Source of the DNA: Bacillota bacterium
GTDB lineage: Bacteria > Bacillota > Clostridia > Christensenellales > CAG-138
Length of the DNA stretch: 47,750 nucleotides
Assembly: GCA_016286445.1 (NCBI GenBank)
Contig: JAEESS010000011.1
Location: forward strand, 1-47,750
Reading direction: 5' to 3'
Made by a program: the position numbers and the translations under genes
The notes under the pieces: generated by a model
The model's input: only the letters and a program-made list of their open reading frames with translations
Database searches by the model: none
What the model was told of the DNA's origin: nothing
Shown: positions 1-15,724 of the stretch, piece by piece
How positions within the stretch are numbered: position 1 is the stretch's first letter
Layout: the number at the start of each line of letters is the position of its first letter

Positions 1-2
1 AT

Positions 3-677
3 AAGTATCTGGAACGGCTGTACAACGGCCTCATTAAGGAAAACCCGACGCTCGTTCTGATGCTCGGCATGTGCCCGACGCTGGCGGTCTCCACCGCGGC
101 GATCAACGGCATCAGCATGGGTCTCTCAACACTCGCGGTTCTGATCCTTTCCAACTTCCTGATCTCCGTGATGCGCAACGTCATTCCGGACGAGGTTCGC
201 CTTCCCGCCTACATCGTCATCGTCGCGTCGCTCGTTACGGTGGTCAAGCTGCTGATCAAGGCGTACCTGCCGGACGTCGATGTGGCGCTCGGCACCTACA
301 TAGACCTGATCGTTGTCAACTGCATCATCCTGGGCCGCGCCGAAGCGTACGCAAACAAGCACACACCCGGGCTCTCCGTCATGGACGGCATTGGCATGGG
401 CCTCGGCTTCACCGTTGCTCTGACGCTTGCGGGTCTCGTGCGTGAGCTTTTAGGCGCAGGCACCGTGTTCGGCTTTACCGTATTCCCGCAGGAATATGCG
501 GTCGGCATCATGATTCAGCCGCCGGGAGCGTTCCTGGTCATTGCGGTGTTTATCATCATCATGAACGCGATCGGCATCAAGACGCGTCAGCATGAGCTGG
601 TGAACAGCGACGGCTGCAACGGCTGCTGTACAACCTGCGCCATGCGCTGTGAGGAAGCAAAGGAGGAAGCAAAATGA
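3..677 (+). CDS. rnfE: RnfE, electron transport complex membrane subunit (5' end missing)
   Basis: Integral membrane subunit of the Rnf complex, which couples ferredoxin:NAD+ electron transfer to Na+ or H+ transport. The reading frame is open from base 3, so the start lies left of the window; 224 residues are visible. The segment reading PTLAVSTAAINGISMGLSTL and the later GIGMGLGFTVALTLAGLVRE are typical of the RnfE/RnfA/NqrD/NqrE family, and about five to six hydrophobic helices are visible. The hydrophilic C-terminus carries five cysteines (pattern C-x2-CC-x2-C-x3-C, about bases 612-650) before a Glu/Lys-rich end. The stop overlaps the rnfA start by 4 bases (ATGA), indicating translational coupling. 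rnfC, rnfD and rnfG are presumably upstream, outside the window. Confidence 0.93.
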   Translation, partial: KYLERLYNGLIKENPTLVLMLGMCPTLAVSTAAINGISMGLSTLAVLILSNFLISVMRNVIPDEVRLPAYIVIVASLVTVVKLLIKAYLPDVDVALGTYIDLIVVNCIILGRAEAYANKHTPGLSVMDGIGMGLGFTVALTLAGLVRELLGAGTVFGFTVFPQEYAVGIMIQPPGAFLVIAVFIIIMNAIGIKTRQHELVNSDGCNGCCTTCAMRCEEAKEEAK

Positions 678-1288
678 TTCGTTTGGTATTGATCGTCATT
701 TTGAACGCGTTGATCAGTAACGTCGTTTTGAACCAGTTCCTCGGCATCTGCTCGTTCCTCGGCGTTTCCCGTCAAATCAAGGCATCCGCATCCTTAGGCG
801 GCGCGGTCATCTTCGTCATCACGATCGCATCGGCGGTCGCAAGCCTCCTGTACAACGGGATCCTCGTTCCGCTGCACCTGGAGTTCATGAAGATGATCGT
901 CTTCATTCTCGTCATCGCGGCGCTCGTGCAGATCGTGGAGATGTTCCTCAAAAAGAAATCTCCCTCGGTCTATAAGGCGCTCGGCATCTATCTGCCGCTG
1001 ATCACCACCAACTGCGCGGTGCTCGGTATCGCGATCGACAACATCGACAAGTTCGGCTACAACTTCATCGAAAGCGTATTCTCCGGCTTCGGCACGGCGG
1101 TCGGCTACACGATTGCGATCGTGCTGCTCGCCGGCATCCGTTCGCGCATCAGCGAGGAGGATCTTCCCCGTCCCGTGCGCGGCGCACCCGTCGTCATGCT
1201 TGCGGCGGCGCTGATGTCCATTGCATTCATGGGCTTCACGGAGCTGCAGCCCGCGATCGAAACGGTATTGAAGGGGGTCGGACAATGA
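674..1288 (+). CDS. rnfA: RnfA, electron transport complex membrane subunit
   Basis: A 204-residue, almost wholly hydrophobic protein with about six membrane helices. The N-terminus (ISNVVLNQFLGICSFLGVSR) and the internal LGIYLPLITTNCAVLGIAI segment are hallmark RnfA/NqrE sequences; the cysteines in these conserved half-helices belong to the family's intramembrane iron-sulfur site formed with RnfE. An rbs-like GGAGG lies in the end of rnfE. The gene overlaps rnfE by 4 bases and rnfB by 4 bases, so the three are translated as a coupled unit. Length agrees with the family norm of roughly 190-200 residues. Confidence 0.95.
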   Translation: MIRLVLIVILNALISNVVLNQFLGICSFLGVSRQIKASASLGGAVIFVITIASAVASLLYNGILVPLHLEFMKMIVFILVIAALVQIVEMFLKKKSPSVYKALGIYLPLITTNCAVLGIAIDNIDKFGYNFIESVFSGFGTAVGYTIAIVLLAGIRSRISEEDLPRPVRGAPVVMLAAALMSIAFMGFTELQPAIETVLKGVGQ

Positions 1289-2103
1289 GCGCACCGATTA
1301 TTATTCTGATCACCACCGGCGTCATCACCGCGATCGGCATCATCGTCGGCGCGGGACTCGTGTTCACCGGCAAGAAATTCCATGTGCCGGTCGACGAGCG
1401 TGAAACGGAGGTTCGCGAATGTCTGCCGGGAAACAACTGCGGCGCGTGCGGCTATGCAGGCTGCGACGCAATGGCTGCGGCGATCGTCGCAGGCGAAGCG
1501 CCGGTCAACGGCTGTCCCGTCGGCGGCGCGCCGGTTGCCGAAAAAATCGGCGGCATCATGGGCACCGATGCGGAATTTGTCGAGCGCAAGATTGCGTTCG
1601 TCCGCTGCAAGGGCACCTGTGAAGCGTCCGGCATACAGGGCAACTACGTCGGCATTCACGACTGCCGTTCGGCGGCGCTTGCCGGCATAAATCTCAAAAA
1701 CTGCGACTACGGCTGCATGGGTCTCGGCTCCTGCGTGAACGTGTGTCCGCAGGGCGCGATCAAGATCATCGACGGCGTTGCGGTCGTGAACCGCAAGCTG
1801 TGCGTTGCCTGCGGGCTGTGCGTCAAGGCATGTCCGAAGGGGCTCATTGAGCTCATTCCGGAAAGCAAACACGTTGCGGTGCAATGCCAAAACCGCGACA
1901 AGGGACCGCAGGTCAAAAAGGTCTGCTCCGCAGGCTGCATCGGCTGCACGCTGTGCACGCGGCAGTGCGAGCATGACGCGATCCATATGGACGGCAACCT
2001 GGCGCGGATCACCTATGAAAACTGCACCCAGTGCGGCAAGTGCGCGGAGAAGTGCCCTTCGCACGTCATCACCCCGCCCTGCCCCGTACAAAAGGAGGCA
2101 TAA
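1285..2103 (+). CDS. rnfB: RnfB, multi-cluster ferredoxin subunit of Rnf
   Basis: A 272-residue membrane-tethered iron-sulfur protein taken to be the entry point for ferredoxin electrons. One N-terminal helix spans about residues 5-27. A first 4Fe-4S domain uses C46, C52, C55 and C60 (CGACGYAGC). Further cysteine-rich ferredoxin motifs follow: C140/C144/C150/C154, C173-x2-C-x2-C-x3-C183, C218-x2-C-x2-C-x3-C228 and C247-x2-C-x2-C-x3-C257, so at least four more clusters are possible. The last codons contain the AAAGGAGG ribosome site of nrfA, which begins 3 bases after the stop. Clostridial RnfB proteins commonly carry this longer cluster set. The gene is the last canonical rnf subunit before the cytochrome gene. 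Confidence 0.95.
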   Translation: MSAPIIILITTGVITAIGIIVGAGLVFTGKKFHVPVDERETEVRECLPGNNCGACGYAGCDAMAAAIVAGEAPVNGCPVGGAPVAEKIGGIMGTDAEFVERKIAFVRCKGTCEASGIQGNYVGIHDCRSAALAGINLKNCDYGCMGLGSCVNVCPQGAIKIIDGVAVVNRKLCVACGLCVKACPKGLIELIPESKHVAVQCQNRDKGPQVKKVCSAGCIGCTLCTRQCEHDAIHMDGNLARITYENCTQCGKCAEKCPSHVITPPCPVQKEA

Positions 2104-2106
2104 GCT

Positions 2107-3423
2107 ATGGAAAAACGCAATCAGGCTGCAAAGCTCATCATCGGCGCGGTCATCGTGATCATTGCCGTGCTGTTTGTAGCGGGCATTGTCAGTCAGCACG
2201 ACATCAAGTACAAATCCGCTCCGCTTTCACGTGACGACATCGACTATCGGCAGGTCGAAGCGCCGGCGGCGACCAGCGCGGACGAAACGATCACCGCTTC
2301 CGACTGGAACGCGATCTTCCCCGACATCGTCGTTTCCTGGGGCAGGAATGCCGAGAATGAAGAGGTCGTCGACTATCTGGAGCTCGATCCGTACCTTGTG
2401 GAGATCTACGAGGGCTACGGGTTTGCAAAGGACTACGGCAGCGCGCGCGGACACAACTACACGCTCACCGACGTTGCAAAGACCAAGCGTCCGCACGGCA
2501 TGGCAAACTGCCTCACCTGCAAGACGCCGAACTTCACCAAGCTCGTAAACGACGAGGGCGTTGAGGTCTACTCGCGCCCGTTCGACGAGGTTTACGCGCA
2601 GATCACCGAAAACGGCGGCGAGACCGTCAGCTGCTATACCTGCCACGGCAACAACCCCGGCAACGGCACGCAGCCGAAGGAGAACCTCACGGTCACGCAC
2701 AGCTATATCACCAAGGCGCTCGGCGACAATCTCAGCACGATCGATCCCGGCGTCCTCGCGTGCGGACAGTGCCACATTGAGTACTACTTCAATCCGGAGA
2801 CCAAGGAAACGACCATGCCGCACGACTCCGTCGACGCCATGACGCCGGAGGCGACGTACGACTACTTCACCGAGATCGGTTTTTCCGACTGGACGCAGGA
2901 AAGCACCGGCGCAAAGATGCTGAAGGTCCAGCATCCCGAGATGGAAACGGTACTGCTCGGCAAGCATGCGGGCGTTTTGAACTGCGCCGACTGCCATATG
3001 CCGGTCGTGCAGAATCCGCAGACGCAGAACATCTACCACAGCCATACGCTCGTAAGTCCGCTGAAGGACAAGACGCTGCTCGAGACCTGCCTTGCCTGTC
3101 ATAAAGATCTCGGCGCAAAGAACGCGGATGAGATGATCACGTTCGTCCAGAACATCCAGGCGCGCATCTCCGCGGAGGAGACCCGCGTCGGCAACCTGCT
3201 CGCCGATTTCAAAAGAGCGCTTGCCGAAGCGAACCAGTCCGGTTCCGTAAGCGAAGACCGGCTGAACGAGGTCCGCGAGCTCTATCGGAAGGCGCAGTGG
3301 TTCTTTGACTACTGCTACGTTGAAAACTCCGAAGGCGCGCACAACTCCGAGCTTGCGACCCGCTGTCTCAACACGGCGGAAGAGCTCATCAATCAGGGGA
3401 TGGCGCTGCTGAAGGCGGAATAA
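2107..3423 (+). CDS. nrfA: NrfA-type pentahaem cytochrome c nitrite reductase, membrane-anchored
   Basis: Periplasm-facing ammonia-forming nitrite reductase (nitrite plus six electrons to ammonium). Five haem motifs are visible: CLTCK at 135-139, CYTCH at 176-180, CGQCH at 219-223, CADCH at 293-297 and CLACH at 328-332. The CxxCK active-site haem, whose lysine replaces the usual histidine ligand, is diagnostic of NrfA. Other family signatures: RGHNY near 114, the HIEYY tyrosines just after haem 3, and KVQHPEME near 273-280 holding the catalytic histidine. Residues 9-28 form one hydrophobic helix without a clear cleavage site, so the enzyme is probably held in the membrane by it. 438 residues is slightly short of typical NrfA. 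No NrfH quinol dehydrogenase lies next to it; the direct neighbour is rnfB, 3 bases away. Activity on nitrite, hydroxylamine or sulfite is all possible for this family. Confidence 0.93.
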   Translation: MEKRNQAAKLIIGAVIVIIAVLFVAGIVSQHDIKYKSAPLSRDDIDYRQVEAPAATSADETITASDWNAIFPDIVVSWGRNAENEEVVDYLELDPYLVEIYEGYGFAKDYGSARGHNYTLTDVAKTKRPHGMANCLTCKTPNFTKLVNDEGVEVYSRPFDEVYAQITENGGETVSCYTCHGNNPGNGTQPKENLTVTHSYITKALGDNLSTIDPGVLACGQCHIEYYFNPETKETTMPHDSVDAMTPEATYDYFTEIGFSDWTQESTGAKMLKVQHPEMETVLLGKHAGVLNCADCHMPVVQNPQTQNIYHSHTLVSPLKDKTLLETCLACHKDLGAKNADEMITFVQNIQARISAEETRVGNLLADFKRALAEANQSGSVSEDRLNEVRELYRKAQWFFDYCYVENSEGAHNSELATRCLNTAEELINQGMALLKAE

Positions 3424-3438
3424 CAACCCACAAGACTT

Positions 3439-3485
3439 GCGGCAAAGGGTCCGCCCGAAAAGCGCCTGCCCTTTGCCGCTTTCTT
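3439..3485 (+). terminator. Hairpin with T-rich tail between nrfA and resB
   Basis: GCGGCAAAGGG (3439-3449) pairs perfectly with CCCTTTGCCGC (3469-3479) across a 19-nt loop, followed by TTTCTT. It could terminate or attenuate transcription after nrfA and leave a smaller amount of message for resB-ccsA; alternatively it protects the nrfA 3' end. Confidence 0.6.
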
Positions 3486-3491
3486 ATCATC

Positions 3492-4751
3492 ATGGAGATC
3501 CTCAAAAAAGTCTACAAGTTTATCGCGTCGATGAAGTTCGCGATCATCCTGCTGATCGTCGTTGCGATCGCCTGCGTGATCGGCAGTCTCGTACCGCAGG
3601 GCGAGCAGTTCTTGCAGTATCGGGATTCATATTCCGAACGTACGGCGGCATTCATCCTTGCGTTTCATCTCGACGACGTGTTCCACAGCTGGTGGTTCAT
3701 CGCGCTTACGGCGCTGCTGTGCCTTTCCGTGCTGCTCTGCAGTCTCACACGCGTTCGTACGCTGATCCGGCAGACTAAAACTGCAAAGGATCCCGCGCAC
3801 GCGATCTCGGAAACGCCGACCGCATCCGTTTCCGGCGTTGCCGATCCTGCGCCCGTTTTCCGGCAAATGCGCTTTTATCGCCCGGTCCGATCGACCGCCG
3901 ACGGAAAGGAGCTCCTGTTCGCGTATCGCAACCGGATCGGCTACTGGGGCGCGTGGGTATGCCATATCGGGATCGTGCTGATCATTTTGGGTTATGCGCT
4001 CGGGCAGATCACGCTGTTTTCCGCCGAAGTATACGGCACGCCCGGACAGACGAAGCCGATCGATAACAAGCCCTGCGAGGTCACGATCGAGGACTTCCGG
4101 ATCGAACGCAATGAAACCGGGTTCGTCGAGCAGTACGTTTCGACGCTGACCGTCAAGAACACCGCAACCGGCGAAACGCAGCGCGGCACGTCGAGCGTCA
4201 ACCATCCCGCCGTGCTCGAAGGATACAAGTTTTATCAGACTGCAAGCGGCGATGCTGTGCGCGTCACGATCTCGGAGGACGGTGTTCCGTTTGAAAGCGC
4301 GGACCTCTGCGTCGGCGAGGAGCTGACGATCGATTTTCTGCCGGGACTCTCGCTGTTTTTGAACGCGTACGAGCCGGATCATGCCGGAACGCCCGCCTAT
4401 CAGATCCTGTTTTTCGTAAACGGACAGCATATGGACGTCGGCAGGAACTACTTTGCGCCCGGCGCCGTCATCGATCTCAGTCCCTATGCGATCACGCTGT
4501 CCGAGCCGATCGAATACACGCTGCTGCGCGTCAAGAAGGATTCCTTCGCATGGCTCGTGCTCGTCGGCGGGATCCTCACCGCGCTCGGGCTGTTCTGCGC
4601 GCTGTACGTCGTGCCGGAAACGCTTTGGGCGATCCGGGAGGAGGACGGCGCCTGGACGGTGCACGGCAAAAGCAGAAAGCTTGCGCCGCTGTTTGTTGAA
4701 CAGTTCGACCGTGCGGTCCGAAAGGCGACCGGAAAGGAGGCGGCAAAATGA
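3492..4751 (+). CDS. resB: ResB-like cytochrome c biogenesis protein (System II)
   Basis: A 419-residue ResB/Ccs1 family protein that works with CcsA to deliver haem across the membrane and attach it to apocytochrome c. Membrane helices are seen near residues 14-32 (after the ResB-typical SMKFAIILL and ahead of GSLVPQG), near 64-82, near 152-172 and near 350-372, with a large extracytoplasmic domain between the last two. The ATG at 3492 has no obvious ribosome site and follows the hairpin at 3439-3485 by a few bases, but the N-terminus matches the family, so the start is probably right. The stop overlaps ccsA by 4 bases. Its position after nrfA indicates it serves that cytochrome. Confidence 0.9.
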   Translation: MEILKKVYKFIASMKFAIILLIVVAIACVIGSLVPQGEQFLQYRDSYSERTAAFILAFHLDDVFHSWWFIALTALLCLSVLLCSLTRVRTLIRQTKTAKDPAHAISETPTASVSGVADPAPVFRQMRFYRPVRSTADGKELLFAYRNRIGYWGAWVCHIGIVLIILGYALGQITLFSAEVYGTPGQTKPIDNKPCEVTIEDFRIERNETGFVEQYVSTLTVKNTATGETQRGTSSVNHPAVLEGYKFYQTASGDAVRVTISEDGVPFESADLCVGEELTIDFLPGLSLFLNAYEPDHAGTPAYQILFFVNGQHMDVGRNYFAPGAVIDLSPYAITLSEPIEYTLLRVKKDSFAWLVLVGGILTALGLFCALYVVPETLWAIREEDGAWTVHGKSRKLAPLFVEQFDRAVRKATGKEAAK

Positions 4752-5599
4752 ACCGGGCGGAAAGCATACTCTTTCTTGTGACGCTTGCGCTGCATTTTGT
4801 CACGATGCTTCTTTCCTTCTTCTATGTCGCGGTCAAAAAGCCCGTCCTCTCAAAGCTTGCGATCCGCGTACAGCTTGCTGCGCTGCTCGTACATACGGCG
4901 GCGATCGTGCTGCGCGGGATCGTGATGGGACGGCTGCCAATGGCGAACCAGTACGAGTTTTCCACCGCGTTTTCCTGGGCGCTTGCGCTCGTCAGCCTGA
5001 TCTTTATCCTGAAATTCAACTTCCCGGTGCTCGGCGCGTTCGCCTCCCCCGTCACCCTGCTTTTGGCGGTGTATGCGGGCGTGCAGAAGCTGAATGAGCT
5101 TCGGGTCATTGAAGCAAACGGCATCGACAGCATCCGGAACCTGATGCCGGCGCTTCGAAGCAGCTGGCTCGGCATCCACGTTTCGACCGTCATCATCGCA
5201 TACGGTGCGTTCGGCGTGTCGTTCGTGCTTTCACTCATCTTCCTTCTGCGCGATAAAATGAAGGAAAACGGCTTTTGGGACACGCACATTCCGAAGAAGG
5301 AAAAGCTCGATACGATCAGCTATCGCTGCGTTTCCCTCGGCATGATGTTCCTGACCGTCACGATCGGCATCGGCGGCGTCTGGGCGGAGAACGCCTGGGG
5401 CAGCTACTGGAGCTGGGATCCGAAGGAGACGTGGGCGCTCGTGACCTGGGTGATCTACCTCGTTTACCTGCATCTGCGCATTCGCAAGGGCTGGAGCGGC
5501 AGGACCGCCGCGCTGTTCGGCGTTGCGGGCTTTGTCTGCGTACTGTTCACCTATATCGGCGTCAACACGCTTCTGCCGGGTCTGCACAGTTATAAGTAG
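4748..5599 (+). CDS. ccsA: CcsA/ResC cytochrome c synthase, WWD haem-handling protein
   Basis: Partner of ResB in System II cytochrome c maturation. A 283-residue polytopic protein with about eight helices. The tryptophan-rich haem-binding signature WGSYWSWDPKETWAL starts at W217, with conserved histidines in flanking loops (for example near residue 275, LLPGLHSYK). It overlaps resB by ATGA and ends the operon. A c-type cytochrome maturation pair is needed only if the organism makes covalent haem proteins; the only one visible here is NrfA. Confidence 0.93.
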   Translation: MNRAESILFLVTLALHFVTMLLSFFYVAVKKPVLSKLAIRVQLAALLVHTAAIVLRGIVMGRLPMANQYEFSTAFSWALALVSLIFILKFNFPVLGAFASPVTLLLAVYAGVQKLNELRVIEANGIDSIRNLMPALRSSWLGIHVSTVIIAYGAFGVSFVLSLIFLLRDKMKENGFWDTHIPKKEKLDTISYRCVSLGMMFLTVTIGIGGVWAENAWGSYWSWDPKETWALVTWVIYLVYLHLRIRKGWSGRTAALFGVAGFVCVLFTYIGVNTLLPGLHSYK

Positions 5600-5621: not shown

Positions 5622-5663
5622 AAAAATCTCGGCTGCGGCATTGACACCCGCCGCCGATTTTGT
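5622..5663 (+). terminator. Imperfect hairpin ending the rnf-nrf operon
   Basis: AAAATC..GGC..GCGGC pairs with GCCGCCGATTTT, followed by TGTTATATT. The stem contains bulges, and the same stretch contains the -35 box of the next promoter. Weak to moderate support. Confidence 0.4.
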
Positions 5664-5669
5664 TATATT
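5641..5669 (+). promoter_or_regulatory. Consensus sigma-A promoter for the PRTase-like gene
   Basis: A perfect TTGACA (5641-5646), 17-bp spacer and TATATT (5664-5669). The predicted start falls near 5676, giving a leader of about 27 nt that holds the ribosome site CAGGAGGAGG. One of the best promoters in the window. Confidence 0.75.
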
Positions 5670-5702
5670 ATAAGTTGACTGACAGGAGGAGGGAAATATC
5701 GG

Positions 5703-6347
5703 ATGTCGATTCAAATGCGTGAATACCGGAACCCGAACAACGGGAATCTTCCGCTGCGCGTGGCGAAGGGTCATTTTGCAACCAGCCACAGCCACATCAA
5801 TTACTATGTGGACCTGACCATGACCAAGTACTGCCTGCCCGAAGCGCGTGAAGCCGCGATCCATTTGGCAAATCGCTTCAAATCGACCACGATCGTCGAT
5901 ACGATCCTCTGCCTGGACGGCACCGAGGTCATCGGCGCGTGCATGGCAAGCGAGCTTTCTAAGCAGAGCTACACCAGCATGAACGCCGGACGTCCGATCT
6001 GCGTCGTTACGCCCGAGCACACGACCGGCAGTCAGCTTTTGTTCCGCGACAACACCGCGCCCATGATCCGCAGAAAGAACGTCCTCGTGCTGGCGGCGTC
6101 CGTTTCCACGGGCTATACCGCGCTCGGCGCGATCGAGGCGATCCGCTACTACGGCGGCGAAACGGTCGGCATCTGCTCGATCCTCGCCAACATCAAGGAA
6201 TGCGGCGGCTACCCCGTCACCGCGATCTGCGATACAAACCACATCTGGGAGGACTACGAAAGCTCCCCCGCGCACGAATGCCCGCTGTGCAAGGCAGGCG
6301 TCAAGCTCGACGCCATGGTCAACACCTACGGCTTTTCAAGCTTCTGA
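5703..6347 (+). CDS. Orotate phosphoribosyltransferase-like protein with altered PRPP loop
   Basis: A 214-residue type I phosphoribosyltransferase fold protein. Residues 127-140 read VLVLAASVSTGYTA, the place of the PRPP-binding loop, normally hydrophobic residues followed by two acidic residues and TTG. Here both acidic residues are alanine (131-132), so catalysis may be lost or changed; it might instead bind a nucleotide as a regulator. The N-terminal half has FKSTTIVDTILCLDGTEVIG, like the family's hood region, and the C-terminus carries CPLC (193-196) of unknown role. The gene stands alone between a strong promoter and a terminator, just upstream of oxygen-defence genes. No pyrimidine genes are nearby, so the orotate label is from fold similarity only. 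Confidence 0.65.
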   Translation: MSIQMREYRNPNNGNLPLRVAKGHFATSHSHINYYVDLTMTKYCLPEAREAAIHLANRFKSTTIVDTILCLDGTEVIGACMASELSKQSYTSMNAGRPICVVTPEHTTGSQLLFRDNTAPMIRRKNVLVLAASVSTGYTALGAIEAIRYYGGETVGICSILANIKECGGYPVTAICDTNHIWEDYESSPAHECPLCKAGVKLDAMVNTYGFSSF

Positions 6348-6351
6348 GATC

Positions 6352-6376
6352 AAAGCGCCTTTCGGTGCGCTTTTTT
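6352..6376 (+). terminator. Rho-independent terminator after the PRTase-like gene
   Basis: AAAGCGC (6352-6358) pairs with GCGCTTT (6367-6373) and the stem runs into six T residues. It lies 5 bases after the stop codon. Confidence 0.75.
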
Positions 6377-6403
6377 GCTAAAACAAAAAAGGAGGAACCC
6401 GGT

Positions 6404-6778
6404 ATGGAAATGAAATTCTATCGCTGCGAAACCTGCGGACAGATCATCGCGATCGTCAAGAAGACCCCCGTCCCCGTCATGTGCTGCGGCAAGCCCATGA
6501 AGGAGATCGTCCCCGGCACGACCGACGCGTCGCTCGAAAAGCACGTTCCCGTCGTCGAAGTCGACGGCTGCTGCGTCAAGGTAAAGATCGGCGCCGCCGC
6601 GCACCCGATGCTCCCCGAGCACTACATCGAATGGGTCAGCTTACAGACCAAATACGGCAATCAGAGAAAGGCGTTGAACCCCGGCGACGCGCCGGAGGTC
6701 TGCTTCAGGATCTGCGACGGCGACGAAGTCGAAGCGGTCTATGCCTACTGCAACCTGCACGGGCTTTGGAAAGCGTAA
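6404..6778 (+). CDS. dfx: Desulfoferrodoxin (superoxide reductase, two iron centres)
   Basis: Reduces superoxide to hydrogen peroxide without making oxygen, the usual anaerobe strategy. The 124-residue protein has the N-terminal desulforedoxin centre (C8, C11, C27, C28) and the superoxide reductase centre with EKH at 45-47, H67, H73, C116 and H119. The start was set at 6404 because a strong AAAAGGAGG lies 8 bases upstream and the N-terminus MEMKFYRCETCG is complete; in-frame upstream sequence belongs to the previous gene's terminator region. Electrons normally come from rubredoxin or NADH:rubredoxin reductase, not seen here; rubrerythrin follows 216 bases downstream and would remove the peroxide. 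Confidence 0.96.
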   Translation: MEMKFYRCETCGQIIAIVKKTPVPVMCCGKPMKEIVPGTTDASLEKHVPVVEVDGCCVKVKIGAAAHPMLPEHYIEWVSLQTKYGNQRKALNPGDAPEVCFRICDGDEVEAVYAYCNLHGLWKA

Positions 6779-6787
6779 ACGCTTCGG

Positions 6788-6811
6788 TCGGATGAAAGTA
6801 TTTTCATCCGA
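6788..6811 (+). terminator. Perfect stem-loop after desulfoferrodoxin
   Basis: TCGGATGAAA (6788-6797), loop GTAT, TTTCATCCGA (6802-6811): a perfect 10-bp stem 10 bases after the stop. The following tail is only moderately T-rich (ACGGTTTTC). Confidence 0.55.
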
Positions 6812-6831
6812 ACGGTTTTCAGCTTTTGCCT

Positions 6832-6957
6832 AAAATCCTGCGGATTTTCGGGCGGCAACATCCACTCCGCTTCGCTTCGTTACAGAGGCAGATCGCGCGC
6901 TCCCCGCGCGTACCGTCGTAAGGAGTCAGATCCGCCGCGCATGTCGCCGGATCTGAC
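6832..6957. repeat. Structured intergenic stretch with two further inverted repeats
   Basis: AAAATCC-TGC-GGATTTT near 6832-6848, and GTCAGATCCG (6925-6934) with CGGATCTGAC (6948-6957) separated by 13 nt, upstream of rubrerythrin. No coding potential is seen. The stretch may be a degenerate dispersed repeat, or the second palindrome may be an operator or leader structure for rubrerythrin. Confidence 0.45.
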
Positions 6958-6994
6958 GGATTTGCTTTATTCATGATCACGACAAGGAGGACAT

Positions 6995-7531
6995 ATGAGC
7001 AAATATACAGGTACGAAAACCGAACAGAACCTGCTCGCCGCGTTCGCGGGCGAATCGCAGGCGCGCAACAAGTACACCTATTTCGCCTCCCGCGCAAAGA
7101 AGGACGGCTATGAGCAGATCGCCGCGCTGTTTCTGAAAACCGCGGACAACGAGAAGGAACACGCCAAGATGTGGTTCAAGGAGCTCGGCGGCATCGGCAC
7201 GACCGCCGAAAACCTCAAGGCCGCCGCGGACGGCGAAAACTACGAATGGACGGACATGTACGAGGGCTTTGCAAAGACCGCCGAGGAGGAGGGCTTTGCG
7301 GAGCTTGCGGAGAAATTCCGTCTGGTCGCCGCGATCGAAAAGCACCATGAGGAACGCTATCGCGCACTGCTAAGGAATGTCGAGACCGCCGCAGTCTTCC
7401 AAAAGAGCGAGGTCAAGGTCTGGGAATGCCGCAACTGCGGGCACATCGTGATCGGCGAAAAGGCGCCGGAGATCTGCCCCACCTGCGCCCACCCGCAGGC
7501 GTATTTCGAGGTCAACGCGGAAAATTATTGA
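6995..7531 (+). CDS. rbr: Rubrerythrin
   Basis: Non-haem di-iron peroxidase that reduces hydrogen peroxide to water in anaerobes. The 178-residue protein has an N-terminal four-helix bundle with di-iron ligands (E20, E53-x2-H56, and ExxH-type residues around E94-E97 and E115-H118) and a C-terminal rubredoxin-like domain with C145, C148, C161 and C164. The ribosome site AAGGAGG lies 7 bases before the ATG. Full length for the family. Together with desulfoferrodoxin it makes a superoxide to peroxide to water route. Confidence 0.96.
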
Positions 7532-8763: not shown

Positions 8764-9525
8764 ATGACACAGGACGAGCGCAGAGTTTGGCTCATTCGGG
8801 CGATGCTGGATGAACAGGGATATCGGAACGAGATCCCGCGGGACGTTTTTGAACAGAAACGGCTGCTGCGGGGATTGTTCAATGTGCGCCCGCCCAAGGA
8901 GGCGAGCACGGAATTTCTTGCCGTGCAGGACGCATACCTTCGGGAGGCGGCGCGTGAAAAGGGCGTGACAACGCTTGCGGAGCTCTCCCCCATCCGTCCG
9001 CACCAATACCTTTGGCGCGGGGACATCACGACGCTCGCGGTCGACGCGATCGTGAATGCCGCAAACTCGACGCTTCTCGGCTGCTTTTCCCCGAACCACG
9101 GCTGCATCGACAACGCGATCCATACCTTTGCGGGCGTCGAGCTGCGGCTTGCGTGCAACGAAATCATGCAGCAGCAGGGACATGAGGAGCCCGCCGGCAG
9201 CGCAAAGCTGACCCCGGGGTTTAATCTTCCCGCAAAGTACGTGCTGCACACGGTCGGACCGATCGTGTCCGGCAGGCTCACGGAACAGCATTGCCAAGAG
9301 CTTGCATCCTGCTATGAAAGCTGTCTTGCGCTCGCCGAAGAAAACGGGATCGGAAGCGTCGCTTTCTGCTGCATCTCGACTGGTGTGTTCGGCTTCCCGC
9401 AAGACGCAGCCGCGCGGATCGCGGTCGAGACCGTGAAGGCGTACCGAAAGCGCTGCCCGATCGACGTCGTATTCAATGTGTTCAAGGAAGCGGACCTGCG
9501 GCTCTATCAGGCGCTTCTCAATTAG
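8764..9525 (+). CDS. Zinc-containing macrodomain protein, probable ADP-ribosyl hydrolase
   Basis: A 253-residue protein: an N-terminal helical part (about 1-80) and a macrodomain (about 85-253). The ADP-ribose loops are seen as DAIVNAANSTLLG (94-106) and STGVFGFP (205-212). C107, H112 and C114 in GCFSPNHGCIDNAIH match the zinc site of the Zn-macrodomain subgroup, which removes ADP-ribose from protein. The downstream gene, 18 bases away, is a class M sirtuin; in other Gram-positive bacteria the two act as writer and eraser of ADP-ribosylation, often on a lipoylated GcvH-like carrier. That carrier and its lipoate ligase are not present here. Confidence 0.88.
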   Translation: MTQDERRVWLIRAMLDEQGYRNEIPRDVFEQKRLLRGLFNVRPPKEASTEFLAVQDAYLREAAREKGVTTLAELSPIRPHQYLWRGDITTLAVDAIVNAANSTLLGCFSPNHGCIDNAIHTFAGVELRLACNEIMQQQGHEEPAGSAKLTPGFNLPAKYVLHTVGPIVSGRLTEQHCQELASCYESCLALAEENGIGSVAFCCISTGVFGFPQDAAARIAVETVKAYRKRCPIDVVFNVFKEADLRLYQALLN

Positions 9526-9543
9526 CCGGAAAGGAGTTTTTTC

Positions 9544-10392
9544 ATGCAGTATACCGAGATCACGCCGGGGCTTGTAAACCGGCTGAAAACCGCGATAGCG
9601 GACTCTGACGCGATCGTGATCGGCGCGGGCGCGGGGCTTTCGACCGCCGCGGGCTTTACCTATGCGGGCGATCGCTTCAAGCGGTTCTTTTCCGACTTCA
9701 TTCAAAAGTATCACTTCCGCGACATGTACACCGCGGGGTTCTATCCGTTTCCGACGCCGGAGGAATACTGGGCGTACTGGAGCCGGTACATTCTCATCAA
9801 CCGCTACGAAAACCCGCCGAAGCCGGTGTATCAGCACCTTTTGAAGCTTGTCAAAGACAAGAATTATTTCGTGATCACCACGAACGTTGACCACTGCTTC
9901 CAGAAGGCGGGATTCGACAAGGCGCAGCTCTTTTACACGCAGGGCGATTACGGGCTCTTCCAATGCTCAACGCCGTGCCACCGCCGCACCTATGACAACG
10001 AAGAGGTCATCCTCCGGATGATCGCAGAGCAGAAGGATATGCGCATCCCCTCCGCGCTCGTGCCGCGCTGTCCGAAATGCGGCGCGCCGATGGCGATGAA
10101 CCTCCGCGCGGACGAGACCTTTGTCGAGGACCTCGGCTGGAACGAGGCGGCGTCACGGTATGTGGAGTTTGTCGAAAAGCATCTCAACGAAAAGCTGCTT
10201 CTCCTGGAGCTCGGCGTGGGCGGCAACACGCCCGCGATCATCAAGTATCCGTTCTGGAAACTGACCGCGCAAAACCCGAACGCGACGTACGTCTGCGTGA
10301 ACCTCGGCGAAGCGCAGTGCCCGCCGCAAATCGAATCGCGTTCGATCGTCGTCAACGCTGACCTTGCGGACCTCATCGACGCGCTGCAGTAA
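9544..10392 (+). CDS. SirTM-like class M sirtuin, probable protein ADP-ribosyltransferase
   Basis: A 282-residue Sir2-fold protein. The NAD-binding start reads GAGAGLSTAAGFTYAGDRF (27-45) and TTNVDHCF (112-119) stands where ordinary sirtuins have TQNID. The usual catalytic histidine before G-D is Gln133 (TQGDYG), which fits the class M sirtuins that transfer ADP-ribose rather than deacylate. Zinc-ribbon cysteines are C141, C145, C176 and C179. A ribosome site AAAGGAG precedes the ATG. Cotranscribed with the macrodomain gene. The class M assignment rests on context and motifs; a conventional deacylase is the less likely alternative. Confidence 0.88.
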   Translation: MQYTEITPGLVNRLKTAIADSDAIVIGAGAGLSTAAGFTYAGDRFKRFFSDFIQKYHFRDMYTAGFYPFPTPEEYWAYWSRYILINRYENPPKPVYQHLLKLVKDKNYFVITTNVDHCFQKAGFDKAQLFYTQGDYGLFQCSTPCHRRTYDNEEVILRMIAEQKDMRIPSALVPRCPKCGAPMAMNLRADETFVEDLGWNEAASRYVEFVEKHLNEKLLLLELGVGGNTPAIIKYPFWKLTAQNPNATYVCVNLGEAQCPPQIESRSIVVNADLADLIDALQ

Positions 10393-10489: not shown

Positions 10490-13400
10490 TCAGTCGGCGT
10501 AGAAGATGTTGTCGAAGTATGTATCCTGCGTGATACCGTCGATCAGATAGCCGTTCAGCTCCGGATCGTTCGGGTCGGCTCTTTCCACCGTGAGCAGCGC
10601 GGTCGTTCCGTCCTCCGTCCTGATCTCCGCAAGCGTTCCGGATTCGTGCCAGCGCGTCATGTATATGTACGAACCCGCGGGGATCACCGCGTCCGCGCCG
10701 TCGATCGTGCAGGGCAGATCGCGCACAAGATGCAGCAGCTTGCCGCCTTCCATGAGACGCACGCGATCGGATGCGGATTGGATCTCATCCGGGATCACGT
10801 CGCAGTCGAACCATTCGGAATCCGGCGTCAGTTCCTCGCCGTGATAGGTCCGCCCGCCGAGTCTGGTCCCCAGAATATCGGTCTGCGTCGCAGAGCCGCG
10901 CACGGTATTACCGTCGAAGCTGCAATACGCCCAGATGACCGGTCCGCGGACAAACCGTCCGTTTTCCATGTGCAGCTCAGCCGTCTCGTAATCCTCCGAA
11001 CCGGTATTGTAGACCACGAGCAGATTCAGCCGTGTCGAATCCGGATCGAGATCGAGCAGGATCGCCTGCTCCAATCCGGCGCCGAAGCTGACCTCGACCG
11101 ACGCTTTTCCGACGGAGATCGTCAGATACTGTCCGTGTATTTCGTAGGCGACCTCATCCTCCGTCCTGTCGCCGTCAAAATCGCAGCGGAACAGGACGCC
11201 GCTCTCCGGCGCTTCGCGGTAGCCGTTTTCCTCATCGTAGTCCCAGAACCGGAACAGCCCCGGAAACGCATTCGGATCATTCCAAAGGACCTTATCGGGA
11301 TCGCCGCCCGGCTCCTCCGGCACAAACAGACGCCATGCGTTGTTGTACCACACGACCAGTCCGTCCCGCGTCACATAGAACTGCATACCGATCGAGCCGA
11401 AGTTTGCCTGTCCGTCCGTCTTCGGTATTTCGGTGATCGACACGACGGAGGTCACAGTTCCCGACGCCGCATCGGCGTCCGGCGCATCCGGGCGTATTTC
11501 GTCGTGCAAGCCGTACACCTCGCCATTATAGCAGATCATGGGAATATGCATCGGATTCGGTTCCTCTGTCGGCGTGGGCGTCGGTATGAGCGTCGTTGGG
11601 GGCGTCGTCTGCAGGGTCGATGCAGGCTTCGGCGCAGGGGTTGCCGACTGCGGCGGCGTCGGCGTTGCGCCCGGAACGGTATCTTCCCCGTATCCCTTGA
11701 AAATGATAGACATCGTCAGGGTTTCGGCGTCGCCCTTGATACTTTCCGTCGGCATGCCTAAAAGCTGAAACGCGCTGCTTGCATACTTAACGCAGACCCA
11801 AAGCTCGTTTCCGCATCGCTTGCACTTGAACGCGTCTGCGGAATCGCCCGGCATGAGCGTAAGGACATTATACCAGGACTTTTCCGGATCGAAGAGCGTG
11901 TGCGCTTTGAGATCCAGAACGAGATGCAGCGAGTCCCCTTTGCGGATCTCGACTGTATCGCCCTTGACCTCCGTTTCGCAGCCGATCGCCCGGAACACCG
12001 CGGTCATCGGGATCATGTTCATCATTTCGCCCTTTGCGGATTCCTCATAGATCGAATCGACCGGCGCGGAAATTCCGTTAACGATCAGTTGATACTGCGG
12101 CTTCGGCGCAGGCGTATCGGAAGCCGCCGCGCCGACGTGAAGACAGATCGCGATCTCGTTGCCTATGCTGTAATCTTCCGCACGGTACGAGACGATCGCG
12201 CTCACGTAGTACGTGCCCGGCGAAAGCGTTTGGAGAAGCTCCGTTACAACGCAGCCGTTCTCCCACGGAATCCCGTTGTGGGCGACGTCCATGATGCGCT
12301 CGTATGCGGCGTCAAAAACCATGATCTCGTCCAGCTTCCAGCCGTCCGCCGTCAGTACAATGAAGGGCATGCCCACATTGTATTCCGTGACGGGGATTTG
12401 GCTAAGGACCTCCTCGTCCTCAAGCTGAACGCCCACGCCATCCGCTTCCAATTCCGGTTTCGATTCCCACACGAAGCCCTCATACGGATAGACGGGCACG
12501 CTGTTCACAAGGAAATAATATGATACGTCGCTTTGCATCGTCGCGTCGTCCTGCGCAGGCGCCGCCGTTTTTTCGTCGACGTTATACATGAAGAGGAACG
12601 TGTGTCCGCTGTTTTTGACCATGATCAGCACCGTGCCGGAAAGCGTACCCGGTTCGATCTCATAAAATGCGTACTGCTCGGTCTCCGTTTCTTTCAGGCT
12701 GAAAAAGCCGCTGTCATCGATCACGCTGTACCGCGTTCCGTTGATGCAGATCTCCGGCTCGGCGTCGAACGCCCAGACCTTTGTCGCGGCAAACGCGAAA
12801 TACATTCGTCCGTCGAGATACGCGATCTCGGACAGCCGCATCCGGTCGACTTCCTGTTCGACGGAGACCGTGACCGGAAAGATACGCTGCAGCCGGACCA
12901 GGCGCTGATGCAGGAAGTTTTCCTCCCCTTCCATGATCGTATCATAATCCTGCGCATCCTCCTCGGACATGGTCTCCATCTTTGCGCGGCGCATATCGTA
13001 GGTCCTGTCGAACTCGTACTGTTCCGTAAGGACCTGCGCGTATGCAGCCTCAAACACGCCGCGGTCCGCATCCGGCAGCAGCGGCTCAAACATGCGCCAT
13101 TCATTGTCGTACAACACGACCAGTCCGTCGATCGTCATGGCGTAGGACGTCTCGCCGAAATTCGTCTGACCTTCCTCGGTCGGCCATTGTGACAGAGGGA
13201 CCGGAGAGTCCGTCGTCCTGCGGATCGCGCTTTCGTCCGGCTCGCCCGCCGTCTCGTGATCGGTGATGACGTAAACCATGCCGTGATACCGGATCGCGGG
13301 CACGGACGCATTCGACTCCAGCGACAGGTCCGTTTTCGTTTTTGCAAGCGGGGTCGGATCGTCCGATCCGAACAGCGCATGCCGTATCACGACGCCGCCG

Positions 13401-13642
13401 AGCACGAAGACCGCGACGAGCAGCACCGCGACCGCGGAATAAGCAAAGACATTGCCGAGCCTGCTGCCTGTCTTTCGGACACGGTCGGACGTCTGCGGGG
13501 TCCAGCGTTTCTCCGGCTTGTCTTCCGTGCGAGCTGTTTTTTTCTCGGTGCAGACGGCAGCGAGCGTCCGTTCCACCGTTTGTTCAAAGGAATGGGGCAT
13601 TTCCGGGATCGCATCGGAAACGCGGATCTGTATTTTACGCAT
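10490..13642 (-). CDS. Very large sigma-linked membrane protein with a duplicated surface module
   Basis: A protein of about 1050 residues encoded directly after an ECF sigma factor. Residues 1-60 are cytoplasmic, with a short motif-rich segment (SFEQTVERTLAAV); one membrane helix is at about 66-88; the rest would be outside. Two similar modules are visible, near 116-190 and 700-780: both have the order short YHG/YNG-type strand, VY, a Ser/Thr-rich stretch, TNFG or ANFG, then DGLVV-Y-N-WR-F. A copper-amine-oxidase-like stalk domain is near 515-620, a Thr/Pro linker near 650-695, and a calcium-site-like DFDGDRTEDE follows module 2. The ATG at 13642 is preferred (GGAGG 9 bases upstream); an ATG at 13648 is possible. 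It overlaps the sigma gene by 8 bases. Anti-sigma or signal sensing is an inference from position. Confidence 0.8.
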   Translation of the reverse strand: MRKIQIRVSDAIPEMPHSFEQTVERTLAAVCTEKKTARTEDKPEKRWTPQTSDRVRKTGSRLGNVFAYSAVAVLLVAVFVLGGVVIRHALFGSDDPTPLAKTKTDLSLESNASVPAIRYHGMVYVITDHETAGEPDESAIRRTTDSPVPLSQWPTEEGQTNFGETSYAMTIDGLVVLYDNEWRMFEPLLPDADRGVFEAAYAQVLTEQYEFDRTYDMRRAKMETMSEEDAQDYDTIMEGEENFLHQRLVRLQRIFPVTVSVEQEVDRMRLSEIAYLDGRMYFAFAATKVWAFDAEPEICINGTRYSVIDDSGFFSLKETETEQYAFYEIEPGTLSGTVLIMVKNSGHTFLFMYNVDEKTAAPAQDDATMQSDVSYYFLVNSVPVYPYEGFVWESKPELEADGVGVQLEDEEVLSQIPVTEYNVGMPFIVLTADGWKLDEIMVFDAAYERIMDVAHNGIPWENGCVVTELLQTLSPGTYYVSAIVSYRAEDYSIGNEIAICLHVGAAASDTPAPKPQYQLIVNGISAPVDSIYEESAKGEMMNMIPMTAVFRAIGCETEVKGDTVEIRKGDSLHLVLDLKAHTLFDPEKSWYNVLTLMPGDSADAFKCKRCGNELWVCVKYASSAFQLLGMPTESIKGDAETLTMSIIFKGYGEDTVPGATPTPPQSATPAPKPASTLQTTPPTTLIPTPTPTEEPNPMHIPMICYNGEVYGLHDEIRPDAPDADAASGTVTSVVSITEIPKTDGQANFGSIGMQFYVTRDGLVVWYNNAWRLFVPEEPGGDPDKVLWNDPNAFPGLFRFWDYDEENGYREAPESGVLFRCDFDGDRTEDEVAYEIHGQYLTISVGKASVEVSFGAGLEQAILLDLDPDSTRLNLLVVYNTGSEDYETAELHMENGRFVRGPVIWAYCSFDGNTVRGSATQTDILGTRLGGRTYHGEELTPDSEWFDCDVIPDEIQSASDRVRLMEGGKLLHLVRDLPCTIDGADAVIPAGSYIYMTRWHESGTLAEIRTEDGTTALLTVERADPNDPELNGYLIDGITQDTYFDNIFYAD

Positions 13643-14120
13643 CTTCATTTTCCTCCAGGATCGTTCGTAAAGCATCCTTTGCGCGGGATATCCGCGACTT
13701 GACTGTGCCGACGGGGACCTGCAATACAGCTGCGATCTCCTCCAAAGAATAGCCCTGTTCTTTGAGATAAAGCAGGTTCCGCTGATCCGCATTGAGCCGC
13801 ATCAACGCAGCATGCAGATCGAGCGCCTGCGCCGTATCCGGAAACGGCTGCGGGCTATCGGGGATCTCATCTGTCTCAAGGACTCTGCGGCGCTCGCGCA
13901 GGATGGTATACGCTTCATTTCGCAGAATGCGCAGAAACCACGCGCGGAAGCTGCCCCGCTTCAACAGCGAATTGCGGTGCTCGTACGCCTTTACGATCGC
14001 CGCGCTCATCGCATCCTCACAGTCGTATGTGTTTTTGAGGATCAGAAACGCCACGCCGAACGCAGTCTTTTTGACGCTTCCGATCTCCTGTATAAACACA
14101 TCGTCGTGCATCATAGCCAT
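13635..14120 (-). CDS. ECF-type RNA polymerase sigma factor
   Basis: A 161-residue sigma-70 family protein with region 2 (DCEDAMSAAIVKAYEH, then FRAWFLRILRNEAYTILRER) and region 4 (LNADQRNLLYLKEQGYSLEEIA and VPVGTVKSRISRAKDALR). The frame is open further upstream, but the ATG at 14120 has a GGAGG 6 bases before it and an ECF-type promoter sits inside the longer frame, so the shorter form is used here. The last codons overlap the start of the large membrane protein at 13642, which suggests coupled translation and a sensor or anti-sigma partnership. Confidence 0.9.
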   Translation of the reverse strand: MAMMHDDVFIQEIGSVKKTAFGVAFLILKNTYDCEDAMSAAIVKAYEHRNSLLKRGSFRAWFLRILRNEAYTILRERRRVLETDEIPDSPQPFPDTAQALDLHAALMRLNADQRNLLYLKEQGYSLEEIAAVLQVPVGTVKSRISRAKDALRTILEENEDA

Positions 14121-14266: not shown

Positions 14267-14294
14267 AAATTGATTATCCGAGAAGGAGATTTCC

Positions 14295-14855
14295 ATGAAA
14301 AAACTGATCGCATTCTTTTTGGTGTTTGTTTTGTTGATGATCGCGGCGGCGTGCGCAGGCAATACGTCCGGCAATACGCAGACCCTCCGCGGAGAGCTTT
14401 CCGTTGCATACGACAATGCGCTGACCGGCGAGCTTTTGGTCTATTTCCAGGCGAACCAGGGCTGTTCCGTGCAGGGCGTGCTTCTGGACGCCGAGACCGA
14501 TTACGAAGATCTCCATGAGACCGCGTCCGTCGCGCTTGTGAAGGACGAAGCCGTGATCGAAGCGCTCAAGGAAGCGGGCTGGATCGAAACGGAAGACTGG
14601 TCCGACGCGCAGAAGAAGATGAACGCCGGCATGTTCGGCTTCACCGTTCTGAGCGCGCCAGTTATCACCGAGACCGCAAAAACGTCTTCCAAGCTGTTGA
14701 CCGACTGGCTCGTCGGCGACGGCACCTATGACCGGACGATCACGACCGTTTCGGGCAGCTGCGGCTGCAGCAAAAAGCAGACGAACGTCACGATCAAAAG
14801 CGACGCGCCGGAGCTTGCCAAGAGCGAGCAATTCAAAGCGCTCGTCAATCCGTAA
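14295..14855 (+). CDS. Hypothetical lipoprotein
   Basis: A 186-residue protein with a lipoprotein signal peptide: MKK, a hydrophobic run, then LMIAAAC with the lipid-modified cysteine at C20. The mature part is soluble, with a helical charged centre (about 70-120) and a CGC pair near residue 156. I do not recognise a family; a distant resemblance to a small solute-binding lobe is possible. The ribosome site AGAAGGAG is 9 bases before the ATG. It is divergent from the ECF sigma operon and may or may not belong to that regulon. Confidence 0.75.
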   Translation: MKKLIAFFLVFVLLMIAAACAGNTSGNTQTLRGELSVAYDNALTGELLVYFQANQGCSVQGVLLDAETDYEDLHETASVALVKDEAVIEALKEAGWIETEDWSDAQKKMNAGMFGFTVLSAPVITETAKTSSKLLTDWLVGDGTYDRTITTVSGSCGCSKKQTNVTIKSDAPELAKSEQFKALVNP

Positions 14856-14870
14856 TCATCCGAACACGCG

Positions 14871-14899
14871 AAAATCCCGGATCCTTCCGGGATTTTTTC
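14871..14899. terminator. Bidirectional terminator, lipoprotein and phzF-like genes
   Basis: AAAATCCCGGA (14871-14881), loop TCCT, TCCGGGATTTT (14886-14896) and further T residues. A perfect 11-bp stem between convergent genes. Confidence 0.85.
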
Positions 14900-14906
14900 G
14901 TGTCCA

Positions 14907-15692
14907 TCAAAAGAGCGGCGCAGCGATCTCGCCGATTGCAAACAGCACCGCTTTCCCGCGAAGCGCAATGCGTTCTCCGCTTAAGAGCTCGCATTCGAGC
15001 TCTCCGCCGCGGGGCGACGCCTGATACGCATGAATGATCCTTTTGCCGAGCACCTTCGCCCACCAGTCCGCGATCTGACAATGCGCCGAGCCGCAGACCG
15101 GATCCTCCGGCACCGTCGTCTCCGGCGTGAAGCTGCGCGATACGCAGTCGTATTCCCTACCCTGCGCCGTGGCGTTCCAGATGCGTCCGGGGAGCGTTTT
15201 CAGAAGCGCATAATCGGGCGCAAGGTTTCGCACGACCGCCTCATTTTGAAACACGCAGTTGAGATCGAGGCCTAAAATCGCCTTGACCGGCCGCGCGCCG
15301 TAGGCCTTCTCCATGGCGTCGGTCACCGGGATTTCCGAAAGCTCGTAGGTCGGGAAGTTCAGTTCGAAGCGATCGCCGATCCGCCTGACGGAAAGGTCTC
15401 CGCTGATACTTGTATAGCGCACCTCGTCCGCATCGGGTTCAAGGAACGACAGGATCACGAACGACGCCGCGAGCGTCGCGTGCCCGCAAAGCTCCTCCTC
15501 CGTCATGGGCGTGAACCAGCGGATGCGGTATCGCTCCCCCTCCTTGACAGCAAACGCGGTCTCGGCAAGGTTGTTCTCCATTGCGATCGCCTGCATGATT
15601 GCATCATCAGGCCAGCGGTCCATGACGCAGACCGCCGCTGAATTGCCGTGAAAGGGCTTGTCTGTAAACGCGTCGACGATGTATTGCTTCAT
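14907..15692 (-). CDS. PhzF-family isomerase/epimerase-like protein
   Basis: A 261-residue member of the PhzF fold family (diaminopimelate-epimerase-like). Family signs: HGNSAAVCV (15-23), NLAETAF with the catalytic glutamate E44, RWFTP..EE..CGHATLA (about 62-80), and EDPVCGSAHC, where many homologues have PVTGSAHC. The start at 15692 is chosen over an ATG at 15710 because GGGAGGAG sits just before it, inside the longer frame. The substrate is unknown for nearly all non-phenazine members, and no phenazine genes are near. Confidence 0.88.
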   Translation of the reverse strand: MKQYIVDAFTDKPFHGNSAAVCVMDRWPDDAIMQAIAMENNLAETAFAVKEGERYRIRWFTPMTEEELCGHATLAASFVILSFLEPDADEVRYTSISGDLSVRRIGDRFELNFPTYELSEIPVTDAMEKAYGARPVKAILGLDLNCVFQNEAVVRNLAPDYALLKTLPGRIWNATAQGREYDCVSRSFTPETTVPEDPVCGSAHCQIADWWAKVLGKRIIHAYQASPRGGELECELLSGERIALRGKAVLFAIGEIAAPLF

Positions 15693-15724
15693 GGGCTCCT
15701 CCCTTGCCATTCAAACAGATTGAC

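Follow-up and report, generated by a model that had tools for sequence, protein, structure and literature searches.

Cytochrome c nitrite reductase, NrfA, is normally the terminal enzyme of a quinone chain, and in the NrfHA and NrfABCD systems its electrons come from quinol through NrfH or NrfB-NrfCD. We analysed a stretch of 47,750 nucleotides, referred to below as the window, from contig JAEESS010000011.1 (assembly GCA_016286445.1) of a Bacillota bacterium of the order Christensenellales, in which nrfA directly follows genes of an Rnf complex. Window NrfA shares the fold and active site of the catalytic subunit of NrfHA and NrfABCD; however, NrfH/NapC was not found in the 58 genomes with an Rnf-linked NrfA that were searched. 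As the original prediction for this DNA had proposed, the genome evidence (adjacency of rnfB and nrfA, lack of NrfH, scarcity of the prenyltransferase UbiA) supports an Rnf complex that feeds NrfA without quinone or NrfH, the electron-transfer step being one that we infer.

In the accessible parts of the literature, the nearest precedents are the Rnf-MmcA system of Methanosarcina and the multi-flavin/multi-haem "RnfG" proteins of Meheust et al. (2021). The multihaem cytochrome MmcA of Methanosarcina acetivorans is encoded in the rnf operon and is held to accept electrons from Rnf; the sections available describe it as a seven-haem conduit to methanophenazine or to outside acceptors that is related to octahaem tetrathionate reductase, and as absent from bacteria whose Rnf joins the ferredoxin and nicotinamide adenine dinucleotide (NAD) pools (PMC11024163). 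Here as there, a multihaem cytochrome c gene lies inside an rnf operon, but MmcA is encoded by the first gene of its operon, whereas here a five-haem nitrite reductase is encoded after rnfB, in bacteria. Meheust et al. (2021) described multi-flavinylated RnfG proteins with a multihaem domain from Christensenellales and suggested a second, outward path (PMC8238504). Their proteins resemble the system described here in joining an Rnf cluster to flavin mononucleotide (FMN)-binding and multihaem domains, and one protein from our set (locus L088, below) may well belong among them; unlike our analysis, the available text of that study does not name NrfA or nitrite with Rnf, the stand-alone nrfA that most of the rumen species have, or the absence of quinone and NrfH (PMC8238504). 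As far as the complex of Acetobacterium woodii has been described in the text available, the six functions and cofactor motifs of canonical clostridial Rnf are conserved here, whereas RnfD and RnfG form one polypeptide and the operon continues into nrfA. No description of an rnf-nrfA operon was found in the literature searched (on the rnf-nrfA link, MmcA, multihaem RnfG and Rnf structures), a body of accessible text with subscription papers mostly outside it.

In the window, rnfE, rnfA, rnfB, nrfA, resB and ccsA occupy a single strand in that order, with four-base overlaps at rnfE/rnfA, rnfA/rnfB and resB/ccsA, three bases between rnfB and nrfA, and the ribosome-binding site of nrfA inside rnfB (Table 1); rnfE lacks its 5' end because the contig begins there. 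Apart from the resB/ccsA overlap and the cut end of rnfE, this arrangement had been read from the DNA in the original prediction, as had the N-terminal helix of NrfA and its five haem motifs, one of them CxxCK, and all of it was confirmed. So was the lack of nrfH, nrfB, nrfC and nrfD among the neighbouring genes, which were scanned to position 7531. The genome assembly (2.65 Mb, 109 contigs; completeness 81.7%, contamination 5.6%; the left end of the window is a contig end) has only one copy of rnfA over the cut-off, and NrfA was the sole PF02335 protein found in it.

Linkage of nrfA to rnf proved widespread. We collected the 79 loci of the closest NrfA relatives from a scan of genome contigs, a set biased to close kin; one locus was cut by a contig end upstream of nrfA, leaving 78 that were informative. 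By their record titles, they come from members of the Clostridia, Clostridiales, Lachnospiraceae and Erysipelotrichaceae and from two Spirochaetales, and many are titled with ruminant gut sites. We found rnfB upstream of nrfA in 74 of the 78, within 300 bases in 69 (median gap 17) and at a distance of 1–3.5 kb, with other genes between, in five; the linkage in the window is therefore not due to chance. A plasmid search for close NrfA relatives returned 18 records, all below 60% identity.

Because the locus scan was biased to close relatives, genomes were also drawn evenly from the order, class and phylum, with at least 80% completeness requested. In the order sample, PF02335 was found in eight of 200 genomes, the window's own included, and in all eight rnfB preceded nrfA or a gene fusion that includes it, immediately in seven and with a protein of four FMN_bind domains between them in one. 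The class sample gave PF02335 in four of 391 genomes, namely the window's own and three others; within the short loci obtained from these three, resB was present, and a small multihaem gene and rnf were absent. In the phylum sample, 93 of 398 genomes had a PF02335 match (87 over the cut-off), and a small three- or four-haem NrfH-like neighbour was present in 28 of the 30 short loci obtained. Twenty longer stretches chosen from these matches showed an NrfH-like neighbour in 13, eight-haem proteins in two and neither in five. There was no rnf cluster in the 30 short or the 20 longer phylum loci, which are overlapping sets; the matches of the RnfB profile were just weak ones (at most 36 bits) to ferredoxin-like frames.

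We searched the eight NrfA genomes of the order sample and 50 further genomes for the usual electron donors. NrfH/NapC (PF03264) was found in none of the eight and none of the 50, and in all four control genomes chosen for having NrfH beside NrfA. UbiA prenyltransferase is needed for menaquinone or ubiquinone. It was found in none of the eight genomes and in all 14 control genomes; among the 50, two had UbiA over the cut-off and one a broken, sub-threshold fragment, and the four NrfH control genomes were all positive. Judged from the genome absence of UbiA, quinol would not be the electron source of NrfA. The quinone-free route and the missing NrfH of the original prediction are thus in keeping with these searches. 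The maturation genes fared less evenly: the window pair matches ResB and CcsA profiles of cytochrome c maturation System II, and each of the eight genomes has a single ResB gene, in line with the claim that NrfA has its own maturation pair, but this gene adjoins nrfA in just six of them.

Rnf itself was present in all eight and all 50 genomes (one match just below the cut-off), and in one of the four NrfH control genomes. The rnfA/rnfE pair was that of a single Rnf in eight of eight and 45 of 50 genomes (53 of 58); the other five had a second, RnfB-less cluster (four genomes) or a weak extra match (one). Since Rnf is usually the sole one in the genome, NrfA is tied to the general Rnf and not to a spare copy, and is better viewed as an outlet to the side of this Rnf than as a component of a dedicated complex. 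The second clusters (L159, L160, L161 and L162, from genomes G969, G982, G985 and G973) have no rnfB match and run in the order multi-FMN_bind protein, rnfC, rnfD, rnfE, rnfA; they may serve only to pass electrons from NADH outwards.

In relatives, the full operon reads rnfC, fused rnfD-rnfG, rnfE, rnfA, rnfB, nrfA, resB, ccsA. RnfD and RnfG form one polypeptide in all 69 loci that have both, and are separate in genomes G771, G866 and G535. The domains of RnfC (PF01512 and PF13375), RnfD (PF03116) and RnfG (PF04205), as found in locus L093, come from relatives only. With incomplete sequences excluded and the window included, the [2Fe-2S] cysteines are kept in RnfA (73/73) and RnfE (70/70), and RnfB has three CxxCxxCxxxC motifs in 73 of 73. 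The flavinylation motif of RnfG was present in 63 of 69 by a widened pattern, the strictest form being too narrow (16/69, with a strict count of 33/66 for RnfD), and five of the other six, on inspection, carry variants. The flavin transferase ApbE was found in seven of eight genomes. Two further patterns were discarded: a widened flavin-site pattern for RnfD (55/69) was not used as evidence, and RnfB iron-sulfur patterns (43/73, or 48/75 when wider) were dropped in favour of CxxCxxCxxxC, since the first cysteine of the CLPGNNCGACG motif varies. We also left unused a single open frame that joins rnfB to nrfA at L061:7182-9296, perhaps a natural fusion or a sequence error; this locus departs from its neighbouring species at the stop codon of rnfB, and its nrfA retains its own ribosome site and ATG.

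The layout of putative transcripts was consistent with nrfA belonging to the rnf unit. A promoter scan of the window gave no match ahead of nrfA on the plus strand. Just past nrfA, the DNA contains a hairpin with a T-rich tail (minimum free energy of -28.1 kcal/mol; none of 200 shuffles equally stable), which a simple scan with a shorter loop limit does not list. Terminator-like hairpins occurred in the nrfA-resB gap of 53 of the 68 loci tested, as against 8–10 of 68 in five dinucleotide-shuffled sets. The main transcript therefore probably stops behind nrfA, resB-ccsA would be expressed through read-through or separately, and the placement of the hairpin would favour rnf through nrfA as one unit. 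A separate unit probably begins from the promoter-like site found at 5641-5669 and, at 5641-7531, encodes a phosphoribosyltransferase (PRTase)-like protein (named from its sequence, without a Pfam match), desulfoferrodoxin and rubrerythrin; the same trio lies 3' of ccsA in 15 of 79 relatives.

In two genomes the association goes further than the original prediction had foreseen. At L088 (G090), the gene after rnfB encodes a protein of 1143 residues with three FMN_bind domains (Pfam) followed by NrfA, and flavinylation motifs stand both before and after the NrfA part. At L089 (G166), rnfB is followed by a four-FMN_bind protein and then by an FMN_bind-FAD-NrfA protein (FAD, flavin adenine dinucleotide). 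These fusions behind rnfB add a further link between Rnf and NrfA; L088 and L089 sit well inside the clade of Rnf-linked NrfA, and the fusions are therefore a derived state. FMN_bind/FAD reductases also lie between rnfB and nrfA at L041, L058 and L073, and beside rnf where nrfA is elsewhere at L155 and L156, with a twin-arginine translocation (Tat) signal over the cut-off at L155 and under it at L156. In G451, from a distant family, an NrfH-less NrfA occurs without UbiA, and a four-FMN_bind protein takes the position of rnfG. We read the fusions and neighbours as a putative flavin relay that leads, on the outer side of the membrane, from RnfG to the reductase. At L041:4513-7979, TatA-like and TatC-like genes (named by sequence reading, not by library match) accompany the FMN_bind/FAD reductase, which has a twin-arginine start, between rnfB and nrfA.

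NrfA itself has the features of a nitrite reductase. Five haem motifs were present in 79 of 80 NrfA sequences and CxxCK and QHP in 80 of 80, and an N-terminal hydrophobic helix, a membrane anchor, in 73 of the 76 scanned. Alignment showed that the window protein retains the arginine, CxxCK lysine, tyrosine and glutamine-histidine of Escherichia coli NrfA, which we take to be the catalytic residues; R114, K139, Y226 and Q275-H276 are invariant across 34 aligned NrfA, the window included. A structure model (mean predicted local distance difference test score 74.4) had E. coli NrfA as its top match (2rdz; template-modelling score 0.71, 28% identity), and its best matches were nitrite-reducing NrfA, with the sulfite reductase MccA matching weakly. 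The protein scores above the cut-off of Pfam PF02335 and below those of the narrower NCBIfam models for ammonia-forming nitrite reductase (NF008339, 222.6 against 595 bits; TIGR03152, 181 against 692.5 bits). Two relatives are unusual: L036:8001-10433, behind rnfB, encodes an NrfA-NrfA tandem of 810 residues with ten haem motifs, and L039:7881-9872 encodes an NrfA with a C-terminal tail of ~200 residues containing repeats of the "PETMMRxRP" type, 4.4 kb past which lies an FMN/FAD-reductase-like frame (14289-16892).

We consider it likely, from gene content and order, that the RnfG flavin feeds NrfA in a quinone-free, probably ion-pumping nitrite ammonification or electron sink. The product of the operon would be an Rnf complex to whose outer face a terminal nitrite reductase is attached. 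Reduced ferredoxin would donate electrons to RnfB, and these would cross the membrane through the [2Fe-2S] cluster of RnfA/RnfE to the FMN bound covalently to RnfG on the outside. From this flavin the path would fork, either to RnfD, RnfC and NAD+, the ordinary route, or to membrane-anchored NrfA, which would reduce nitrite to ammonium, needing neither quinone nor NrfH; ResB-CcsA would attach the haems. NADH, entering in reverse through RnfC and RnfD towards the same exit, is as possible a source as ferredoxin. According to the parts of the A. woodii study available, the membrane [2Fe-2S] cluster is reduced and reoxidised in a cycle coupled to Na+ transport, electrons next reach the outside flavin of RnfG, and RnfD has no part in pumping (PMC11889175). 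If NrfA taps the complex at RnfG, the pumping step would therefore be kept. The parts of this scheme that we infer are the step from RnfG to NrfA, the pumping of ions while nitrite is reduced, the use of nitrite as the cellular substrate, and a role in respiration over one in detoxification.

Several observations weigh against this scheme. Neither rnfC nor rnfDG was seen in the window genome at its 81.7% completeness, their place being beyond the contig end. The FMN/NADH motif of RnfC is intact in 59 of 60 relatives, and ordinary NAD+ reduction is therefore probably retained. ApbE was not found in one of the eight genomes (G096), and the FMN-NrfA fusions were seen in a single genus, in two genomes. 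At four of the 78 informative loci (L040, L067, L071 and L075) no rnfB lies near nrfA, with at least 1.5 kb of upstream DNA present; each of these genomes has Rnf on another contig. A search of the genome of L077, the locus whose contig ends upstream of nrfA, gave no Rnf match. NrfH-less NrfA also occurs without adjoining rnf in G771, G703, G866 and G451; UbiA is absent from G771 and G451 and present in G703 and G866, and the genome search gave no Rnf match in G703, so that loss of NrfH is not always coupled to Rnf. Finally, the correlation of 0.71 between NrfA and RnfG over 50 loci includes the window-like clade. With this clade excluded (38 loci), NrfA correlated no better with RnfG (0.62) than with RnfC (0.66) or RnfD (0.62), and within it (12 loci) NrfA was discordant with every Rnf subunit (0.30–0.46).

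We accordingly rejected a specific co-evolution of RnfG and NrfA, for which a partial correlation of 0.61–0.67 over the 50 loci was driven by one clade. A history of the nrfA-resB-ccsA cassette apart from rnf, based on higher agreement of NrfA with ResB (0.80) and CcsA (0.83) than with RnfB (0.38) and RnfC (0.32), was likewise not upheld in general: the discordance is clear only within the window-like clade, and outside it (38 loci) NrfA had a quartet agreement of 0.79 with RnfC and 0.79 with ResB. When L012-L014 are compared with L005, the Rnf subunits except RnfG are 91–98% identical, RnfG 84–87% and NrfA 70–73%, which suggests that, within the window-like clade, nrfA has been replaced without a change of position. 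In a tree of 109 NrfA rows, made by a quick method and with some long branches, the 82 Rnf-linked rows and five unlinked close kin grouped in one clade of 87 rows (support 100; stem 1.86), from which a supported branch separates the 13 NrfH-linked NrfA.

The alternative that survives best, though we think it rather unlikely, keeps the same Rnf wiring and has NrfA detoxify nitrite, nitric oxide, hydroxylamine or peroxide instead of conserving energy. Desulfoferrodoxin and rubrerythrin both follow in the window and its close kin, and NrfA enzymes reduce nitric oxide and hydroxylamine. However, in the window this pair has its own promoter-like site, and it was not found in 64 of the 79 loci, where in some cases the DNA stops a short way past nrfA; a unit shared with the cell's ion pump would also suit energy metabolism better.

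A less probable alternative is that nrfA rides the rnf operon for its regulation alone and draws electrons from free flavins or from another flavinylated lipoprotein. It gains from the conjectural nature of the Rnf-NrfA transfer, from the four unlinked loci, from the four genomes with an NrfH-less NrfA away from rnf, one of them without any Rnf match, and from the lack of a specific co-evolution of RnfG and NrfA. The location of the FMN-NrfA fusions behind rnfB speaks against it, as do the absence of NrfH/NapC from the 58 genomes, the presence of UbiA in only two of them, and the reductases of another kind that occupy the same site.

We regard it as improbable that the main substrate is something other than nitrite, such as sulfite, nitro compounds or other oxidised nitrogen or sulfur species of the rumen. 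The clade stands well apart from NrfH-linked NrfA, as its stem shows, and some multihaem relatives reduce other substrates, but the invariant catalytic residues and the ranking of structural matches, with nitrite-reducing NrfA at the top and MccA weak, point to nitrite. Least probable of all is an inherited neighbourhood without functional meaning: Rnf-linked NrfA and its five unlinked kin form one clade, so that the adjacency may have arisen once, and nrfA and rnfC histories agree outside the window-like clade, but the order is kept at NrfA identities down to 55%, in several families and two phyla (by record titles), and the position is kept where nrfA is far more divergent than the surrounding rnf, as in L012-L014 against L005.

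We are evenly divided on a broader proposal, that in gut Clostridia and relatives Rnf is a modular respiratory hub, with outer reductases (NrfA, FMN/FAD reductases, fusions) plugging into the RnfG flavin while ions are still pumped, and, with the same even balance, that quinone-less fermenters thereby respire nitrite and organic acceptors from ferredoxin or NADH. If RnfG does feed NrfA, gut bacteria that live by fermentation could link nitrite ammonification with ion pumping at the level of ferredoxin, quinone-free, and this would be a little-noticed mode of nitrite breathing in the gut. It also raises the question of whether the outer flavin of RnfG can feed a terminal reductase. In the rumen, nitrite reduction and methane formation compete for reductant. 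A survey, in the text available, names Prevotella and Bacteroides as the main carriers of rumen nrfA (PMC12918512); the clade from Clostridia and relatives would be a further rumen nrfA group beside these.

Table 1. Features of the rnf-nrfA locus, in window positions
Feature	Position	Strand	Evidence
rnfE	3..677	+	TIGR01948, 231 bits, above cut-off; [2Fe-2S] cysteine motifs LGMCPTLA and VNCIILG
rnfA	674..1288	+	TIGR01943, 236.6 bits, above cut-off; cysteine motifs present
rnfB, ferredoxin-side subunit	1285..2103	+	PF04060 and Fer4 domains; TIGR01944, 96.4 bits, above cut-off; three CxxCxxCxxxC motifs
Ribosome-binding site of nrfA, AAAGGAGG, within rnfB, before the rnfB stop	2091..2098	+	direct sequence reading
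nrfA, membrane-anchored cytochrome c nitrite reductase with five haems	2107..3423	+	PF02335, 257.9 bits
N-terminal transmembrane helix of NrfA, residues 2-28	2110..2190	+	hydropathy; helix in structure model
Active-site haem motif CLTCK	2509..2523	+	sequence and alignment
Haem motif CYTCH	2632..2646	+	sequence and alignment
Haem motif CGQCH, then active-site Tyr	2761..2775	+	sequence and alignment
Haem motif CADCH	2983..2997	+	sequence and alignment
Haem motif CLACH	3088..3102	+	sequence and alignment
Hairpin with T-rich tail 3' of nrfA (terminator or attenuator)	3439..3486	+	fold z -4.98
resB, cytochrome c maturation System II	3492..4751	+	PF05140, 200.7 bits
ccsA/ccsB, cytochrome c maturation System II	4748..5599	+	TIGR03144, 244 bits, above cut-off

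Two further features of the window lie away from this locus. On the minus strand, 10490-13792 is a frame of 1100 residues without a Pfam match at 1e-5. At 8764-10392, a macro-domain protein adjoins a Sir2-like protein, an arrangement that resembles known macro/SirTM pairs.

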